64,000 nt of DNA from Desulfocapsaceae bacterium (lineage in GTDB: Bacteria > Desulfobacterota > Desulfobulbia > Desulfobulbales > Desulfocapsaceae). The notes under the pieces are model-generated. The model was not told the DNA's origin, did no database searches, and saw only the letters and a list, made by a program, of their open reading frames with translations. Numbering within the stretch: the stretch's first letter is position 1; the number at the start of each line of letters is the position of its first letter. The stretch spans positions 1-64,000 of the forward strand of contig JARLHL010000040.1 in NCBI GenBank assembly GCA_031292275.1, given 5' to 3'. Made by a program: the position numbers and the translations under genes. Below, piece by piece: positions 1 through 7,775 of this stretch.

Positions 1-1
1 C

Positions 2-721
2 GCTGTCCTCAATTACACCTTTGAGAATGAAGAAAACGATTCCACCTACATGAACCCGGTCAACGTGCTTTCATCGAAAAAGAGAAAAGCCTGGTATCAA
101 GTAGAGCGGCGGCGGACCCTGATAAAAAACAGTGATCTTCCCGAATGGAGCAAGGCCGTTGAGGACCTCAATAATTCCATAGTGCGTGACTTCCTGCTAT
201 TCCTTCTTTATACCGGCCTGCGGCGTAATGAAGCAGCAAGGCTGCAATGGGATCAGGTGGACTTTCGAGAAGGATGTTTTACGATCCCGACCACAAAGAA
301 CGGCGAACCTCACACCCTGCCTATGAGTGATTACCTGAAAACCCTTCTGATGCGTCGTAAGGCCAAGGCTTGGGCTGACAATCCATTTGTATTTCCTGGT
401 AATGGCAAGGAAGGGCATTTGCAAGAACCGAAAAAACCCATGGCAACTGTAACGGCCAACACGGGGATTGTCTTCACTTGTCACGATCTGAGAAGAACCT
501 TTGCCACCATTGCTGAAAGTCTTGATTTGTCTGGCTACACTGTAAAAGCACTCTTGAATCATAAGCAGCAACTCGGCGATGTTACCGGCGGGTATATCAT
601 CCTGAATGTCGAGCGACTCCGGGAACCCATGCAGAAGATTACCAATGCCATTCATGAGCGGATAAGGAAACAGCACGGACAGATAGTACCAATGGATCCA
701 ATACAAAGGGAGTCAATGTAA
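2..721 (+). CDS. Tyrosine recombinase/integrase, 5' end outside window
   Basis: This is the catalytic domain of a phage-type tyrosine integrase, which would excise and integrate the element. The frame stays open to the first base, so the N-terminal arm- and core-binding part is missing from view. Counting from the Met codon at 50, catalytic residues can be read in order: Arg58 in TGLRRNEA, a Lys near 83, HDLR at 145-148, His171 in LNHK and a likely nucleophile Tyr182 in GGYI. It overlaps the next gene by one base (TAATG), so the two are probably co-translated. Family assignment is firm; the subgroup is not resolved. Confidence 0.9.
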   Translation, partial: AVLNYTFENEENDSTYMNPVNVLSSKKRKAWYQVERRRTLIKNSDLPEWSKAVEDLNNSIVRDFLLFLLYTGLRRNEAARLQWDQVDFREGCFTIPTTKNGEPHTLPMSDYLKTLLMRRKAKAWADNPFVFPGNGKEGHLQEPKKPMATVTANTGIVFTCHDLRRTFATIAESLDLSGYTVKALLNHKQQLGDVTGGYIILNVERLREPMQKITNAIHERIRKQHGQIVPMDPIQRESM

Positions 722-1365
722 TGGACGAAATGAAAGAACTTGAGAAATTGCGGCTTGAATTCCTCAAAAGGGGTAAGGACCAGGGGACAGGTGCAATATA
801 TCGGGCAGAATTGGCATTAGAGCATCGTGAACAACCTACCGTTTGTGTAAAAATTCCCCAATCAGGCCCTGATAGTGTGGGATCGTTTGTCGATGGCTGT
901 AAACATTTTTACCAACTCCCACCACTTACACTCAATGTGAACCTTTATGCCACATTGGAAGAAATCGAAGAGGGTATAAAAAAAGCTGTCGTCGATGCTG
1001 TGATGGGGAGAATAAGTTTCAACAAGCAGCTGATGGATTTTGATAACCCTGAATCTACGCCTCCTGAGTTAAAAGCTCGTGGACAAGGGATAAGATATAA
1101 AGAAACCACATTTGAAGAGTTGCGAGTATGTTTGCAAGCTTATGATTTAGAGGAGGAAGGAAAATCCCGTATTGAAATCCAGAATATTCTCTACCCAGGA
1201 CAAGATCGCGCTACAGCCAAGCAAAAGGTATATCAAAAGATTATAAAGACCCGAAAACTAATCGAGGCAGCATCACAAGGAACTGGCTATTTTACCAAGA
1301 AGGTCCTCGATAACAGTCTGACACATTCTATACTCCTAGACACAGAAACCCAAAAAAGCGAGTAA
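721..1365 (+). CDS. Hypothetical protein in the integrative element
   Basis: This is a soluble 214-residue protein that I do not recognise. The start overlaps the integrase stop by one base. The C-terminal half is basic and looks helical, with a stretch around 140-190 (YDLEEEGKSRIEIQNILYPG and onward) that resembles a resolvase- or transposase-type helix-turn-helix; this is only a resemblance. There is no signal peptide, membrane segment or Cys cluster. Its position between integrase and regulator suggests a role in element control or recombination, which is inference. Confidence 0.7.
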   Translation: MDEMKELEKLRLEFLKRGKDQGTGAIYRAELALEHREQPTVCVKIPQSGPDSVGSFVDGCKHFYQLPPLTLNVNLYATLEEIEEGIKKAVVDAVMGRISFNKQLMDFDNPESTPPELKARGQGIRYKETTFEELRVCLQAYDLEEEGKSRIEIQNILYPGQDRATAKQKVYQKIIKTRKLIEAASQGTGYFTKKVLDNSLTHSILLDTETQKSE

Positions 1366-1556
1366 ACCAACTCTCTATACCGCCCACAAGAAAAAACCCC
1401 TACAAGCGTAAAACGAAATAGTCAATCTCAGGGCCATTTAAGTTCACCGACTAAAAGAATAGTCCACCTTATTATGTAGACATCAAAAGGGTTAGAGAGA
1501 TTTCAGTAAGGTTTCTCTTTCCCTACAAGATCATCTTATGAATAAGGAGTAGTACA

Positions 1557-1802
1557 ATGGAACAAAGAATCAACGTCCAAACAGCGACACCATTCACCCT
1601 CTCCCGGAACCTCACAACCATTGAAGCAGCAAGATTCCTAAACCTCAAGCCTGCGACCCTAGGACAATGGCGATGGAATGGGCGTGGCCCACGTTTCGTA
1701 AAAATCGGGCGGTCCTGCCGGTATCGATTGGCTGACCTTGAAGCCTTTCTCGAAGAGCGGGTTTTTAGTTCGACTACTGAGGCAGGAGGACGTGCAGCAT
1801 GA
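1557..1802 (+). CDS. AlpA/excisionase-like helix-turn-helix protein
   Basis: This 81-residue protein carries a MerR/AlpA-type winged helix fold. The motif runs TIEAARFLNLKPATLGQWRW, then RGPRFVKIGRSCRY, and ends with DLEAFLEERVF, matching the helix_turn_helix_17 family of excisionases and AlpA regulators. Such proteins bind att sites or promoters of P4-like elements and switch integrase or replication genes. An AAGGAG ribosome site precedes the ATG. The stop overlaps the primase start by four bases (ATGA), tying it to the replication gene. Whether it acts as directionality factor or transcription regulator cannot be told. Confidence 0.85.
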   Translation: MEQRINVQTATPFTLSRNLTTIEAARFLNLKPATLGQWRWNGRGPRFVKIGRSCRYRLADLEAFLEERVFSSTTEAGGRAA

Positions 1803-4120
1803 TTCAATCAATGCAAGGAATCCAAGGGTGCCCACCTCAAGCTCCCCAGCTTTGGCCCCTTGAGATTCCCATAACACAAGATGATTTTACCCCACTTTTG
1901 TTGGGAAAGAAAGATTATTCTCAACAGAAGATAGCTATCTCAATAGTCGATTCGGTCACTGATACCAGTCCCAAGGCTACAGAATGTACATGGGGAAACC
2001 TTATCCGCGTCTTTTCAAAGCCTAAAGGCCGCGGGGAGTTGAGTCTCTCCGATTACCTCAAGGCCGAGAAAGATGTGCAGACCAAGCAGAAGAACGGAAA
2101 GGGCTTGATAGGCGGCGAATTTTTAAGCCCAGGAACCAGGAAAAGGGAGGCTTTAATAAACCGATCCGTATTGATTTTGGATCTAGATGATGGGCATTAC
2201 GCTTTCAACACGCTTGCTGAATTACTGCAAGGGCTTGGTTTAGAATGTTTTGTCCATTCAAGCTATTCGCATTCTCAGGAAAAGGGAAAATTCCGTATTT
2301 TTGTCCTCTTGGATAAGCTCGTGGTTCAGGATATTGAAGGTGTAATCAGTCGAATGGTGGATTATTTCGAAAGTGTCATCGGGCCGCATATCGACCCTAA
2401 ATCCAGAACGGTTAATCAGTTGTTCTTCACACCTAGTTGTCCACCAGATGCAGTTGATCTTTTCCGATTTCAGCATATCAAGGGCGAACCCTTGAAGGTG
2501 TCAGATTTCGTAAAGGGAAAAGCAGTTGAAAGGAAAATTCTCCCGGTAGGAAATACCCATAATATATTGCATGGGGTCGATGAAGGCGGAAGGACTACAG
2601 CACTTACAAAAGTTGCTGGGTCTGTTATCGCCAGAGGGCTGAGCTTGGTTGAGTCTACTGAGTTCTGCCTGACCTGGAATCAGAAAAACAACCCTCCCTT
2701 AGAAGACGATGAAGTTGAGAAGACAGTCGGTAATATCTTTGCTGCCGACCAAAAGAAAAAGGAGTTGATGACGGATGCCCCTTCTGTATTTACCGACACA
2801 AGGGTTGCTCGATTTTTTACATTACAAGCCAATGGCTTAATTAAGTACTGGCCCGACAGAGGTCACTTTCTGGTTTTTGACGGTACGCGATTCAATGCAA
2901 CTTTTCCTGGAGGGCCATTTACATTTATAAAAGAGATGGTTGCCGCTTTAACTGACCAAGCTCGGTTAATCCCTGGCGAGACTGAGCGGATTGGGAAACT
3001 AAAAGACCTTCTCAAATTGGAATCCCATCAGAAACAGTGCGCTGTACTCGAATCGGCAAAAAACATCCCGGAGTTGATTGTTACAAGTGCGATGCTTGAC
3101 AGTGACCCGATGCTTTTGAATGTTTTGAATGGCACAATAGACCTTAAGAAAGGCAGGCTACTGGCTCATAACCCGGCTGACCTTATTACCCGGCGGATTG
3201 ACATGGAATATGATCCAGAGGCCACCTGCCCTGTATTTTTGGCTTTCCTTGAAAAGATAATGGGAGGTAATGCAAGATTGATTTCTTATCTCCAAAGATG
3301 GTTAGGCTACTGCTTGTCAGGGATGACCAGTGAGCAGGTACTGTTGTTTCTCTTCGGCAAAGGCAGAAATGGGAAAACTACCCTGGTGAATATTGTAAGG
3401 GAACTGCTCGGGGAATTCGCCACTACTGCCGACGGAGGGATAATTCTCAACGGAACTGGAAACGATCTTAATTCGCTTGCCACACTGGCGGGTCTGAGAG
3501 GCACAAGACTTGTTACTCTCAATGAGATCAATGACGGAGACCGCTTGAATGAGGCAGCTGTCAAAAACTTTACTGGTCAGGATGAAATCTCATGCCGGTT
3601 TCTACACCAGGGTTTTTTTTCATACAGACCCCAGTTCAAATTGCTCCTTTTCGGCAATTACAAGCCTAATATCCGGGGTCGAGATTACGGAGTCTGGCGG
3701 AGAATTCACCTTCTCAATTTCGGTGTAACGATTACCGATGCAGAGTGTGATCCGCATCTCGATCAGAAACTCCGGAATGAGCTTCCAGGAATACTCACCT
3801 GGGCAGTTAAGGGCTGTCTTGCTTGGCAGAAAATGGGTTTAAACCCACCATGTGAGGTTAAGGCTGCAGTTGATGAATACAAAAGAGCAGAGGATATGCT
3901 GCAATCGTGGATAGATGAATTCTGCGAAATCGGGCCGCAATTTTCTGAACGGCCACAAGCTTTGCTAAGCTCTTTTATTAACTTCTCCCACTGGAAGAGC
4001 TTGAACCCCAATAAGTTTGGAAGGATGCTTTCAGATGCTGGGTTTGAGAAATCGAAGAGTGGCGGAGACAGGCGCTGGAGCGGCATCCGCCTCAATCAAC
4101 AAATCAACGGAAATTTTTAA
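1799..4120 (+). CDS. P4-type primase-helicase (replication protein)
   Basis: This 773-residue protein should initiate and drive replication of the element. The N-terminal part has LILDLDDG (about 126-132) and SSYSHS (about 154-159), which fit the acidic and His motifs of archaeo-eukaryotic-type primases. A PriCT-like helical region follows at about 255-320, then a D5_N-like region. The C-terminal superfamily 3 helicase has Walker A FGKGRNGKTT (about 518-527), Walker B TLNEIND, and the typical P4 stretch LLLFGNYKPNIRGRDYGVWR. The protein looks full length. P4 alpha-type proteins bind iterons near their own gene; the repeats immediately downstream fit that. Helicase assignment is firm, primase type is inferred. 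Confidence 0.9.
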   Translation: MIQSMQGIQGCPPQAPQLWPLEIPITQDDFTPLLLGKKDYSQQKIAISIVDSVTDTSPKATECTWGNLIRVFSKPKGRGELSLSDYLKAEKDVQTKQKNGKGLIGGEFLSPGTRKREALINRSVLILDLDDGHYAFNTLAELLQGLGLECFVHSSYSHSQEKGKFRIFVLLDKLVVQDIEGVISRMVDYFESVIGPHIDPKSRTVNQLFFTPSCPPDAVDLFRFQHIKGEPLKVSDFVKGKAVERKILPVGNTHNILHGVDEGGRTTALTKVAGSVIARGLSLVESTEFCLTWNQKNNPPLEDDEVEKTVGNIFAADQKKKELMTDAPSVFTDTRVARFFTLQANGLIKYWPDRGHFLVFDGTRFNATFPGGPFTFIKEMVAALTDQARLIPGETERIGKLKDLLKLESHQKQCAVLESAKNIPELIVTSAMLDSDPMLLNVLNGTIDLKKGRLLAHNPADLITRRIDMEYDPEATCPVFLAFLEKIMGGNARLISYLQRWLGYCLSGMTSEQVLLFLFGKGRNGKTTLVNIVRELLGEFATTADGGIILNGTGNDLNSLATLAGLRGTRLVTLNEINDGDRLNEAAVKNFTGQDEISCRFLHQGFFSYRPQFKLLLFGNYKPNIRGRDYGVWRRIHLLNFGVTITDAECDPHLDQKLRNELPGILTWAVKGCLAWQKMGLNPPCEVKAAVDEYKRAEDMLQSWIDEFCEIGPQFSERPQALLSSFINFSHWKSLNPNKFGRMLSDAGFEKSKSGGDRRWSGIRLNQQINGNF

Positions 4121-4125
4121 AGCGT

Positions 4126-4221
4126 GGGCGCTTTGGACGCATTTTTGCCATTTCTTATTACCCTATAGAAAAAATCATATAGGAAAAATATATTTTAGCA
4201 AAAATGCGCCCCAATGCGTCC
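4126..4221. repeat. Nested dyad with paired iterons: candidate replication origin
   Basis: Two GGRCGC units 9 bp apart (4126-4131 GGGCGC, 4135-4140 GGACGC) are mirrored by two units in inverted orientation, also 9 bp apart (4207-4212, 4216-4221). Inside them is an 11-bp perfect inverted repeat, CGCATTTTTGC at 4138-4148 against 4198-4208. A further inner pair is CCTATA (4162-4167) with TATAGG (4178-4183). All share a centre near 4173 and surround an A+T-rich core that could unwind. Placement right after the helicase stop is what P4-like origins show. Origin function is inference. Confidence 0.5.
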
Positions 4222-4253
4222 TAATGTAAAATGTAACAGATAGGAGCTATGTA

Positions 4254-4577
4254 ATGTATACACCAGATATATTAATACGCCGCAACGACGGTAAGATTGA
4301 GACTCACGATAAAACTGATCATATTTGCTCAATGGAGTCACACGATGAGGACGGCGGAGCGAAAGTCGATCTTTATCTCGGCACTAATTACCAAGGTGCG
4401 GTACTTCGCATCGAAACAGATAAAGAATGGAACAGGCCTTTAGTCCAAGAGACATCAGAGGGCTATGAAATACACTTCGCCTCTTTCCACTCGGCGGTAA
4501 ATGTTTTCTCGGCACTGGATTCCGCACTCTCTAGGTACTTACCAGCTGCTTACGACGGAAGGTATCAAGGGGAATAA
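4254..4577 (+). CDS. Hypothetical protein in the integrative element
   Basis: This 107-residue soluble acidic protein is not recognised. It begins with the ATG seven bases after a TAGGAG ribosome site and is closed by a strong terminator. The sequence shows alternating short strands (IETDKEWNRPLVQETSEGYE) and no Cys, signal or membrane segment. It follows the candidate origin, so an accessory or passenger role is possible. Being a real gene rests on the ribosome site, the terminator and the clean frame. Confidence 0.6.
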   Translation: MYTPDILIRRNDGKIETHDKTDHICSMESHDEDGGAKVDLYLGTNYQGAVLRIETDKEWNRPLVQETSEGYEIHFASFHSAVNVFSALDSALSRYLPAAYDGRYQGE

Positions 4578-4585
4578 AAGGCAAG

Positions 4586-4615
4586 GGGGCGGGTGTGTTT
4601 AACCCGCCCCTTTTT
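4586..4615 (+). terminator. Rho-independent terminator
   Basis: A 9-bp perfect GC-rich stem GGGGCGGGT / ACCCGCCCC with a 7-base loop is followed by TTTTT. It sits 9 bases after the preceding stop codon and closes the replication transcription unit. It also rules out the GTG at 4593 as the start of the next gene. Confidence 0.85.
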
Positions 4616-4643
4616 AGCCACCACCACCAAAAAGGCGTCAACA

Positions 4644-4940
4644 ATGAGTCTCCCAAAAACATTCATGACAGAATTACGAGAGCTGGCAGCCAAGGAAAAA
4701 GAATCACAGAAATCCTGCCAAGAAACTCCCCTTGATACCTTCCGGAATTGGTGGCATAGTCTCAAAGAGGAGGAAAAGAGTCGTCCATACTACACGATGG
4801 ATTTCTTCCGATATCACTTCTACGATTCTACTGCTACCATCGGCAAGGTGTTACACCAGATGGGTTTCCGCAAATCGCGGTTATGGCGAACAGACGGTCC
4901 ATCAACAAGGATTTGGTTTCCACCTGACGAATCCAAATAA
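4644..4940 (+). CDS. Small hypothetical protein
   Basis: This is a 98-residue protein rich in Lys, Glu, Arg and aromatic residues, without recognisable family. The ATG at 4644 is chosen because the in-frame GTG upstream (4593) lies inside a terminator hairpin and an AAGG-type ribosome site precedes 4644. The C-terminal part (TIGKVLHQMGFRKSRLWR, then RIWFPP) reads like a winged-helix DNA-binding tail. That would suit a regulator carried by the element, but this is only a guess from residue pattern. Confidence 0.55.
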   Translation: MSLPKTFMTELRELAAKEKESQKSCQETPLDTFRNWWHSLKEEEKSRPYYTMDFFRYHFYDSTATIGKVLHQMGFRKSRLWRTDGPSTRIWFPPDESK

Positions 4941-5014
4941 TAGGAATGGAATCCTTGATGAGCTTATTTTATAAATAGCGGTTTCACCCTAACCAATAAC
5001 AAGGTAAGCATATA

Positions 5015-5461
5015 ATGAAAAAGCTATTTCTGAACATGGTGCTAATTTCGATTTTATGTCTCTCAGGATGTACGGCTGTAACTGTTCGACCAATAGATGC
5101 TTCATTACAATTAAAACACGTATGCATTGAGGACTGTCAGAGTACTTGTTTTGAAGGGGAAATGATGGGGGTGGTTCGGGATGGATTTGATCGCCATGGA
5201 ATTACCACACAAGTCTATTCAGGAACTCCTCCATCTGAATGTGAATACAACTTGTCGATCATGTGTGAACGCTCCTGGGACCTGGCAATGTATATGAAGC
5301 ATGCCGAACTTCGCCTCTACCACAACAATTTGCAAGTCGGATATGCAGAATATCATTTGAATGGAGGAGGAGGTCTTTCGCCTACGAAATGGGGAAATAC
5401 AAGAACGAAGATGGAACCTGTAGTAGATGAGATGCTCATTGGCTACCCAAGGAGGTACTGA
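5015..5461 (+). CDS. Small lipoprotein, Sbal_3080-like
   Basis: The 148-residue product starts with a lipoprotein signal: a basic start, a hydrophobic core and lipobox LSGC with Cys at position 19. The mature part contains RPIDASLQLKHVCI, FDRHGI, ERSWDLA, HAELRLY and GYAEYHLNGGGG, which I recall from the Sbal_3080 family of small lipoproteins of unknown function. Two extra Cys pairs around 38-46 and 74-85 could form disulfides. It would sit in the outer or inner membrane facing the periplasm. It is an unlinked passenger in the element; the family match is from memory. Confidence 0.7.
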   Translation: MKKLFLNMVLISILCLSGCTAVTVRPIDASLQLKHVCIEDCQSTCFEGEMMGVVRDGFDRHGITTQVYSGTPPSECEYNLSIMCERSWDLAMYMKHAELRLYHNNLQVGYAEYHLNGGGGLSPTKWGNTRTKMEPVVDEMLIGYPRRY

Positions 5462-5527
5462 AGAAAGCCTCTCGCCCAACCGAATTAACTAAGATCTCAG
5501 GTCCATTGAAAATTAAAGAATGCGGCA

Positions 5528-5605
5528 ATGATAATTGCTTGTGCTGGTCTTGCTGTCTTTTTTTGTGGATGTGTCAAATCAAGCGGTGCCTTAAGGTACA
5601 GTTGA
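5528..5605 (+). pseudogene. Possible remnant of a lipoprotein gene (leader only)
   Basis: An ATG is followed by 25 codons reading MIIACAGLAVFFCGC then a few polar residues and a stop. This looks like a lipoprotein signal with lipobox ending at a Cys but no mature domain. No convincing ribosome site is seen. It may be a decayed gene or chance. Confidence 0.2.
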
Positions 5606-5735
5606 CCACATTTTCAATGTTCAGCAATTAGCGTCCTAATCATTTCATAATCTGGTTTTAACTTGAGGTTTTCGCGATGAACTGTTAGTTAGTTAGGTTG
5701 AAAAGTTATTGTATTCTGATCCTTTAGGAACCCAG

Positions 5736-5777
5736 AAAGCCTGAATTACTCCAAAAGAGGTGGCTCAGGCTTTTTTT
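5736..5777 (+). terminator. Terminator-like hairpin
   Basis: A 9-bp stem AAAGCCTGA / TCAGGCTTT encloses a 20-base loop and runs into seven T residues. It would end transcription from the lipoprotein side and insulate the repeat-protein gene whose ATG lies about 40 bases on. Confidence 0.6.
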
Positions 5778-5814
5778 GTGGCTCCATACAATGCTTAACC
5801 AAGAGGATTTGTTC

Positions 5815-7269
5815 ATGAAAAATGGATTGATTGCTACTCTTACAATTTGGATTTTCATGGCCGCGACACCCTTCGCGGCGGACGCCACAGATAACGGCGT
5901 CACGCTGACTAATTACTCCGTGTTGAACAACCCCCTCGACGGCTGGTCGACCAACTCGGGTACGCTAAATAACGAATTCGGCGGCACTCTGAACTACTAC
6001 TCCTCCGGGCTGACCAACTCCGGCACACTAAACAACAACTACGGCGGCACGCTGAACAACTACTCCAATTTGACCAATTCCGGCACGCTGAACAACAACT
6101 ACGACCTGACCAACTACTTCACGAACACCGGCTTCGGGTTGGAATACCCCTTCGCGCTGACCAACTCCGGCACTCTGAACAACAACGCCGGCGGCACGTT
6201 GACAAACTACTCCATGCTGACCAACTCCGGCACGCTGAACATCAACTACGGCGGCACGCTGAACAACAAAGACAATGGCTATTTTGCCAACAACTCCGGC
6301 GGCACGCTGAACAACTATGGTTACTTGACCAACAACAACAGCTACAACGCAGGGTTATTTAATTCCGGCACTCTGAACAACTACTCTGAGCTGGGAAACT
6401 GGGGTTCGCTGACCAACTACTCCGGCGGCGCACTAAACAACTTAGGCACGCTGAGCAACTCAGGTGCGCTGAGCAACTCAGGCACACTGAACAACTACTC
6501 CGGGCTGACCAACTACTACGGCGGCACAATGGACAACTACTCCACACTGAACAACTACTCTGCGCTGGCCAACAACTACGGCGGCACGCTGACCAACTGG
6601 AACAACTACGGCGACACGCTGACCAACTACTCCATGCTGACCAACTCCGGCACGCTAAACAATAACGGCTCGCTAACTAACTCCAGCACGGGTATAATTA
6701 CGGGCACTGGCAACTATACCCAGACAGCCGGTAATACCAAAAACAACGGCAGCATGATTCAGCAAAACATCCAAATATTAGGAGGACAGTTGAGTGGAGT
6801 TGGAACGATAACCGGAAATGTGACCATCGGCTCTGGAGCGACTGTTAAGCCAGGAGACCCTAGCGGATTACTGACAATCAATGGAGATTTTACGAGCAGT
6901 GGCAACCTTTTGTTTGAAATCTTCGGAAAAGACAACGGGCAGAATAATCAGTTAAAAATTAATGGCGGCAAAGCTGTATTCAATGGCGGCGGCATGGAGT
7001 TCGATTTTATTAACGGTTATCAAGCCCAAGCCGGTGATAGATGGGACCTCCTGTATGCCACATCAATAGACGGAATAGATCAGCTCAACAATACTCTCAA
7101 CGGCCTGGATTCAGGACTTGCCTGGAAATTAGATTACGTTAACGGCATTGAAAGTCTCATGATTATTAACCCCAGCGTAGTCCCCATCCCCTCCGCTGCC
7201 TTGCTGCTTGGTTCAGGTTTAGTTGGGCTTGCTGGACTTCGTAGAAAGAAGAAACCCGCAATAGCTTAA
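5815..7269 (+). CDS. Secreted Asn/Thr/Gly-rich repeat protein with VPIPSA/PEP-CTERM-like tail
   Basis: The 484-residue product is predicted to be secreted and sorted to the cell surface. It has a signal peptide (MKNGLIATLTIWIF, then AAD cleavage region), a long low-complexity repeat region at about 40-302 built of variants of LTNSGTLNNNYGGTLNNYS, and a beta-rich segment at about 320-370 (GTITGNVTIGSGATVKPGD) like passenger regions of autotransporter adhesins. The tail VPIPSAALLLGSGLVGLAGL plus RRKKK is a PEP-CTERM/VPLPA-type sorting signal that needs an exosortase, not seen here. ATG 5815 is chosen because AAGAGGA precedes it; the TTG at 5776 lies in a terminator. Function as adhesin or matrix protein is inferred. 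Confidence 0.8.
   Translation: MKNGLIATLTIWIFMAATPFAADATDNGVTLTNYSVLNNPLDGWSTNSGTLNNEFGGTLNYYSSGLTNSGTLNNNYGGTLNNYSNLTNSGTLNNNYDLTNYFTNTGFGLEYPFALTNSGTLNNNAGGTLTNYSMLTNSGTLNINYGGTLNNKDNGYFANNSGGTLNNYGYLTNNNSYNAGLFNSGTLNNYSELGNWGSLTNYSGGALNNLGTLSNSGALSNSGTLNNYSGLTNYYGGTMDNYSTLNNYSALANNYGGTLTNWNNYGDTLTNYSMLTNSGTLNNNGSLTNSSTGIITGTGNYTQTAGNTKNNGSMIQQNIQILGGQLSGVGTITGNVTIGSGATVKPGDPSGLLTINGDFTSSGNLLFEIFGKDNGQNNQLKINGGKAVFNGGGMEFDFINGYQAQAGDRWDLLYATSIDGIDQLNNTLNGLDSGLAWKLDYVNGIESLMIINPSVVPIPSAALLLGSGLVGLAGLRRKKKPAIA
5935..6720 (+). repeat. Coding tandem repeats of the surface protein
   Basis: Many imperfect copies of a unit based on ctgaccaactccggcacg and ctgaacaac, coding for LTNSGTLNN-type blocks of about 9-20 residues. 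Copies differ by point changes and length, so the array has been expanded and then diverged. Such arrays can change length by recombination. Confidence 0.85.
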
Positions 7270-7656
7270 TAAAGTAGGAGATATATTTTAGTCACAATTC
7301 CCTCTTACGGTTGTTTTTAACTCCTGATCACTTATTCTGAGTGGTTAAATCCTTTGCATCATACGATACATAATTTCAAGCCGATATGGGTTTAAGCAAA
7401 TTTTTGGCTCTCTGAAAATTTTTAATTCCTTTCGGCATAATGGTACCGCCCCTCTTGCTGAAATCCTCACAAAAAGGTCCCCTGGATTCTTGCCTCTAAA
7501 ATGTAAGCTATTTCACTGTAGGTTATGTTGCTTTAACTGGTATCTGTAATCCCCTGACCCAAAAGTGTCACTATTAAAAGGGCATACAGATAATAAGATG
7601 CAGGTGGTTTCCCTCCTCCAAGTGTTACCCATACGTTACCCGATACGGTTGAAAAC
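7270..7656. other. Intergenic stretch at the element's right end
   Basis: No gene is recognised. The only local structure noted is a short direct repeat, GTTACCCATAC / GTTACCCGATAC, at about 7624-7646. This would be the junction region of the element if tRNA-Arg is its target. Confidence 0.4.
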
Positions 7657-7690
7657 AAAAAAGCACTTACCGAATTAACGATAAGTGCTT
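7657..7690 (-). terminator. Terminator of tRNA-Arg
   Basis: Read on the minus strand, a 9-bp perfect stem AAGCACTTA / TAAGTGCTT with a 12-base loop is followed by a run of six T. It lies 8 bases beyond the CCA end of the tRNA and would end its transcript. Confidence 0.85.
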
Positions 7691-7698
7691 GTATTTAC

Positions 7699-7775
7699 TG
7701 GTGCACCAGGAGGGATTCGAACCCCCGACCTACGGATTCGTAGTCCGTTGCTCTATCCAGCTGAGCCACTGGTGC
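7699..7775 (-). tRNA. tRNA-Arg (anticodon ACG)
   Basis: The minus strand folds as a complete 77-base cloverleaf. It has a perfect 7-bp acceptor GCACCAG / CTGGTGC, D arm GCTCAGCTGGATAGAGC, and anticodon stem ACGGA / TCCGT with loop CTACGAA (anticodon ACG, reading CGN Arg codons after inosine change). The T arm has TTCGAAT, followed by discriminator A and an encoded CCA. The gene's 3' end faces the integrative element, making it the likely insertion target. Confidence 0.97.

Follow-up and report, generated by a model that had tools for sequence, protein, structure and literature searches.

The integrated element and its primase-helicase

The window, by which we mean the whole 64,000-nucleotide stretch analysed, begins at a contig end that cuts an integrase gene. 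The gene order is integrase, a 214-aa ORF, an HTH/excisionase-like gene, a primase-helicase gene, the proposed origin, a 107-aa ORF, a 100-aa ORF, a lipoprotein gene, a gene for a VPLPA-CTERM protein, and tRNA-Arg(ACG). The features that frame this region are listed below.

50-721 (+): tyrosine integrase, truncated at its N-terminus by the contig end
1557-1802 (+): HTH_17/excisionase-like protein, 81 aa, directly upstream of the proposed initiator gene
1799-4120 (+): primase-helicase, 773 aa, with PriCT_1, D5_N, TIGR01613 P4-family primase C-terminal domain and a predicted C-terminal winged helix
7688-7745: element end, tRNA-Arg(ACG) 3' end; host homology to two same-genus genomes starts at 7688
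7699-7775 (-): tRNA-Arg(ACG)

In another genome of the same genus, a different island of 20.8 kb occupies the same tRNA-Arg site (G094, C113:1001-21860, loci L147 and L148). This island has a tyrosine integrase next to the tRNA, and 58 bp of the tRNA end are present at both of its ends as a direct repeat. Hence, the tRNA-Arg site is a used integration site. Most simply, positions 1-7687 are the right part of an integrated element. The left attachment site lies outside this contig, and a search of the rest of the assembly did not find it either.

Three further genes of the element are described here for completeness. The 100-aa ORF (4638-4940) has a C-terminus (GKVLHQMGFRKSR..R.W) resembling the helicase C-terminal winged helix, and its relative in L045 (1393-1701) comes immediately after the gene for a DUF3631 protein. 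Judging by these resemblances, the product may be a small replication-associated DNA-binding protein. The ORF at 5015-5461 encodes a Sbal_3080-family lipoprotein. Phage family phrog_20612 matches it too, and phages or satellites may carry it. At the element's right end, 5818-7269 encodes a low-complexity protein, with repeated NSGTLNN units and a VPLPA-CTERM sorting tail, which is possibly cell-surface cargo.

The primase-helicase matches Pfam D5_N (1.2e-20) and TIGR01613, 'phage/plasmid primase, P4 family' (277 bits, cut-off 108.7). By reading, its Walker A motif (GKGRNGKTT) is intact. We built an AlphaFold2 model with an alignment of 31 homologues; its confidence is high between about residues 330 and 770. 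Using VIA-align, this model matched the African swine fever virus PrimPol (Z 30.9, 455 residues, rmsd 3.4) and the SaPI5 primase-helicase (7ola/7om0; Z 30.0, 402 residues, rmsd 5.0, model residues 313-772). The latter alignment takes in the C-terminal winged-helix part, through residue 772, and a PDB profile search agreed, with 7ola found at 2.8e-21. By the model, no solved structure from a bacterial mobile element is closer than that of the SaPI5 protein. The C-terminus is predicted to fold as helix-helix-strand-strand, with block pLDDT values of 83 or more between residues 711 and 770, and we predict that it is a winged helix that binds double-stranded DNA. The N-terminal domain is poorly modelled (mean pLDDT 48). 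It contains a conserved DxD, weakly resembles phage primases and, taking these together with PriCT_1 and the PHROG primase matches, looks AEP-like. The first-pass annotation had called the protein a 'P4-type' helicase. This describes the helicase half well but not the whole protein, for which SaPI5 is closest and the N-terminus looks AEP-like. Note that a single-protein search for related loci, in genome contigs and viral contigs, returned no relative.

Mirrored iterons and an AT-rich core

The helicase stop codon ends at 4120 and the first repeat begins at 4126, so the site is directly 3' of the proposed initiator gene. All of the repeats fall in the 133-bp intergenic region (4121-4253) between that stop codon and the ORF at 4254-4577. 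They are arranged as follows.

4126-4134 (+): outer left iteron GGGCGCTTT, 1 mismatch to GGRCGCATT
4135-4143 (+): inner left iteron GGACGCATT, head-to-tail with the outer left iteron, 9 bp
4138-4148 (+): left arm of the 11-bp perfect inverted repeat, CGCATTTTTGC (inner iteron and T-tract)
4144-4202: AT-rich core, the proposed melting region, 59 bp, 78% AT
4162-4183: inner pair CCTATA (4162-4167) and TATAGG (4178-4183), centre 4172.5, read directly
4164-4175 and 4178-4189: near-identical A-tract direct repeats TATAGAAAAAAT and TATAGGAAAAAT, within the core
4198-4208 (-): right arm of the 11-bp perfect inverted repeat, GCAAAAATGCG
4203-4211 (-): inner right iteron GGGCGCATT
4213-4221 (-): outer right iteron GGACGCATT, 10 bp from the inner right iteron

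The first-pass annotation had listed short GGRCGC units, and these are present: GGGCGC at 4126-4131 (+) and GGACGC at 4135-4140 (+), with mirror copies GCGCCC at 4206-4211 and GCGTCC at 4216-4221. The repeated unit is better described as the 9-bp sequence GGRCGCATT, in four copies, one of which has one mismatch. The 11-bp perfect inverted repeat and the CCTATA/TATAGG pair were also correctly listed; the former arises because the inner iterons have a common flank, ATTTTTGC. A unit spacing of 9 bp had been noted, which holds for the left pair but not for the right, where it is 10 bp. Because of this difference, the dyad centres coincide to about 1 bp at best. Hence, the common centre proposed near 4173 is approximate rather than exact, the nested dyads being centred at 4172.5, 4173, and 4173.5. 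The core, described as AT-rich at the outset, ranks among the most AT-rich 0.16% of 59-bp windows in the element, and among the most AT-rich 0.03% across the 64 kb. Its A-tract direct repeats are 12 bp each and 14 bp apart.

In dinucleotide shuffles of the intergenic region, an inverted repeat as good as the 11-bp example occurred in 0.55% of 2000 (p about 0.006). The full >> core << arrangement, scored as that pattern of any 6-mer with one free position, was seen in 0 of 3000 shuffles. Elsewhere in the 64 kb, it was found in 7 of 1927 other overlapping 133-bp windows, which represent about four places. No GGRCGCATT copies with up to one mismatch occur in 1-7700 besides the four, and no second copy of the 4126-4221 region was found elsewhere in its own genome. 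The exact double-iteron pattern has three matches in genome contigs (Novosphingopyxis, a Proteobacteria MAG, and Campylobacter), which we presume to be due to chance. Cumulative GC skew, suggested as a check by the first-pass annotation, has no turning point at 4173, which counts against an origin there. The only Rfam matches were to tRNA.

Repeats downstream of homologous helicase genes

The closest helicases are 32-44% identical to the window protein. We counted inverted 7-mer pairs, 15-150 bp apart, in the 250 bp downstream of homologous genes, and compared the counts with shuffles at a threshold of p<=0.01. Upstream and inside-gene regions served as a comparison. Among genome loci from the same order and phylum, a set that includes the window itself and some close relatives, mirrored repeats were detected downstream in 20 of 36 cases, upstream in 2 of 35, and inside the gene in 1 of 37. 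Among viral contigs, with the set reduced for similar downstream sequence, the equivalent counts were 34/57, 0/56, and 1/57. For annotated phages and plasmids, six of eight loci had mirrored repeats downstream of the homologue. About 40% of homologues did not reach the threshold. Some of these have weak or degenerate arms; others may have coding sequence in this position.

Repeat spacing in the homologues is mostly 8-12 bp, about one helical turn, although some of the listed spacings were picked out by a simple word rule, which breaks down at low-complexity loci. The repeat sets face each other over a gap of about 40-80 bp. The nearest relatives have the most similar layouts. The window arm reads GGGCGCTTT GGACGCATT TTTGC, with a gap of 49 bp. 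The arm of Acidithiobacillus phage AcaML1, GGTCTGACGGGTCTGACGGATTT, is GGTCTGACG GGTCTGACG GATTT, with a gap of 45 bp; that of L032, AAGTGAACCAAGTGAACCACTTTT, is AAGTGAACC AAGTGAACC ACTTTT, with a gap of 43 bp; L031 has 26-nt arms, ending in CTTTT, and a gap of 42. Separately, we noted four alternating iteron sets downstream of the L037 and L029 genes (e.g. CGCCACT >>> << >> <<<). These arrays are about twice that of the window and resemble the duplicated crr of P4.

The first-pass annotation had proposed alignment downstream of homologous helicases, and had named loss of the repeats there as evidence against an origin. Most homologues do have such repeats, and the geometry recurs, but the sequence differs. 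This combination, with iteron sequence diverging while geometry is kept, is expected of an initiator-iteron pair.

A candidate replication origin and its known counterparts

We consider it very probable that a small integrated element has its replication origin region at 4126-4221, and that the product of the adjacent upstream gene, the primase-helicase, recognises this site. Several hallmarks of this origin class are found: a D5_N/TIGR01613 initiator adjoins the site, the site is 3' of the gene, opposed iteron sets flank an AT-rich core, and the initiator has a predicted C-terminal winged helix. As first proposed, then, the region is best read as an origin, with most homologues having mirrored iterons around a core directly 3' of the gene. 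Specifically, we infer an initiator-binding origin of a P4/PICI-like element integrated at a tRNA-Arg gene. What the analysis itself shows is the repeats and how they are laid out, the family to which the protein belongs, a winged helix predicted at its C-terminus, and a similar layout found again 3' of homologous genes.

Binding, melting, loading, and replication would, by extension from homologues, proceed as follows. The C-terminal winged helix would bind the two adjacent 9-bp iterons on each side. Since the iteron pairs run in opposite directions, two helicase rings would face each other, assembling over the AT-rich core. The rings would melt the core and then unwind outwards, with the fused N-terminal primase part priming synthesis. 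The weakest points of the origin reading are the iteron word and the two-copy arms, which have fewer iterons per side than many relatives. No identical word was found among the homologues compared, so the window's particular sequence has no support from conservation.

The site could instead be a cis element like crr of phage P4, where the initiator binds while synthesis begins at another origin in the element. In P4, the site at the equivalent position is indeed crr, with an annotated rep_origin elsewhere. Conversely, a second cluster of GGRCGCATT is absent from 1-7700 and, in PICIs and SaPIs, the site 3' of rep is the origin itself (PMC6092414, PMC7581432). We judge a division of this kind to be improbable, and keep it in consideration because the contig does not reach the element's left end.

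We think it about as improbable that the region is a stem-loop origin of the pRN1 kind, in which the feature that matters is not the separate iterons but an extruded hairpin (stem about 17-24 bp, loop 49 nt). The strand folds far better than shuffles (z -4.2), and its dimensions are near those of the pRN1 stem-loop required for replication (21-nt stem, 58-nt loop; PMC4234260). However, the R position varies in swapped order on the left and right and the spacings are 9 and 10 bp, which breaks the stem, while each arm is a good direct repeat. Furthermore, many homologues (among them L019, L023, and L025) have copy numbers and spacings that are unequal between the two sides, as is allowed for iterons but not for a stem. 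Finally, a regulatory role, as an operator for the HTH protein (1557-1802) or a helicase-transcript terminator, is highly unlikely and was set aside: dyads are common operators, and a weak terminator-like match (4116-4137) overlaps the start of the region, but the dyad is 96 bp long, 59 bp of it core, the number of terminator matches is close to that expected from shuffles (2 against 0.9), and an operator would not explain why such arrangements recur downstream of helicase genes in different phyla and in phages.

With the origin reading, an environmental mobile element gains a precise, testable candidate origin and initiator. More generally, on the homologue survey, the region 3' of D5-type primase-helicase genes is often readable as an origin in many phages, plasmids, and islands. 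Initiator-iteron pairs, matched by experiment, could reveal a winged-helix recognition code.

The design itself is already known, from phage P4 and the staphylococcal pathogenicity islands, and 4126-4221 is a clear new example of the P4/SaPI/PICI class. In PICIs, the origin directly follows the initiator gene, always with two iteron sets around an AT-rich region, and a PICI pri-rep-ori segment replicated in E. coli (PMC6092414). Similarly, SaPI Rep uses its C-terminal domain to recognise an origin that comes right after its own gene (PMC7581432). As in EcCICFT073 and SaPI5, opposed iteron sets flank an AT-rich region 3' of the gene for a D5-type helicase with a primase part, here with a structure match to SaPI5. 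The gene order is also PICI-like (int 50-721, HTH_17/excise 1557-1802, primase-helicase 1799-4120, site 4126-4221). No terS, capsid, or interference genes were recognised among ORFs to 7690, the left end of the element being off the contig, and we do not class the element as a PICI. The window differs in having another iteron word, with two copies per side, and in its setting: PICI/SaPI hosts are an enterobacterium or a Gram-positive coccus, whereas this element comes from an environmental genome.

In the P4 record, crr is directly 3' of alpha, with type 1 repeats at 4314(+), 4323(+), 4366(-), and 4384(-). The > > core < < layout, and the 9-bp spacing on one side, are shared with the window. 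In contrast, P4 has a separate annotated origin, ori1, about 4.5 kb from crr; 1-7700 has no second cluster. The P4 crr is also duplicated (two 120-bp repeats), and alpha has a Toprim primase (PMC4234260), instead of the PriCT_1 and apparently AEP-like N-terminus of the window protein. In phage AcaML1, the site is 3' of Gp17, a homologous primase-helicase with 37.8% identity, and again has 9-bp iterons twice per arm, a T-tract ending, and a 45-bp gap. Its iteron is GGTCTGACG, the phage is a complete tailed phage, and an origin is not annotated there.

The last counterpart is archaeal plasmid pRN1, whose replication requires a 100-bp stem-loop directly 3' of the gene for an AEP-SF3-winged-helix protein (PMC4234260). 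The inverted repeat is of similar size to ours and in the same position, but is described as a stem-loop without iterons (PMC4234260). It is conceivable, though we rate this as unlikely, that one origin design serves the D5/P4 primase-helicase superfamily as a whole, with P4 and SaPIs at one end of it and pRN1-like plasmids at the other. The mirrored arms would then be both iterons and an extrudable stem, with iteron words changing fast alongside the initiator, and arm and core length (about 40-70 bp) nearly fixed. If so, the pRN1 'stem-loop' and PICI 'iteron' origins would be the same thing.
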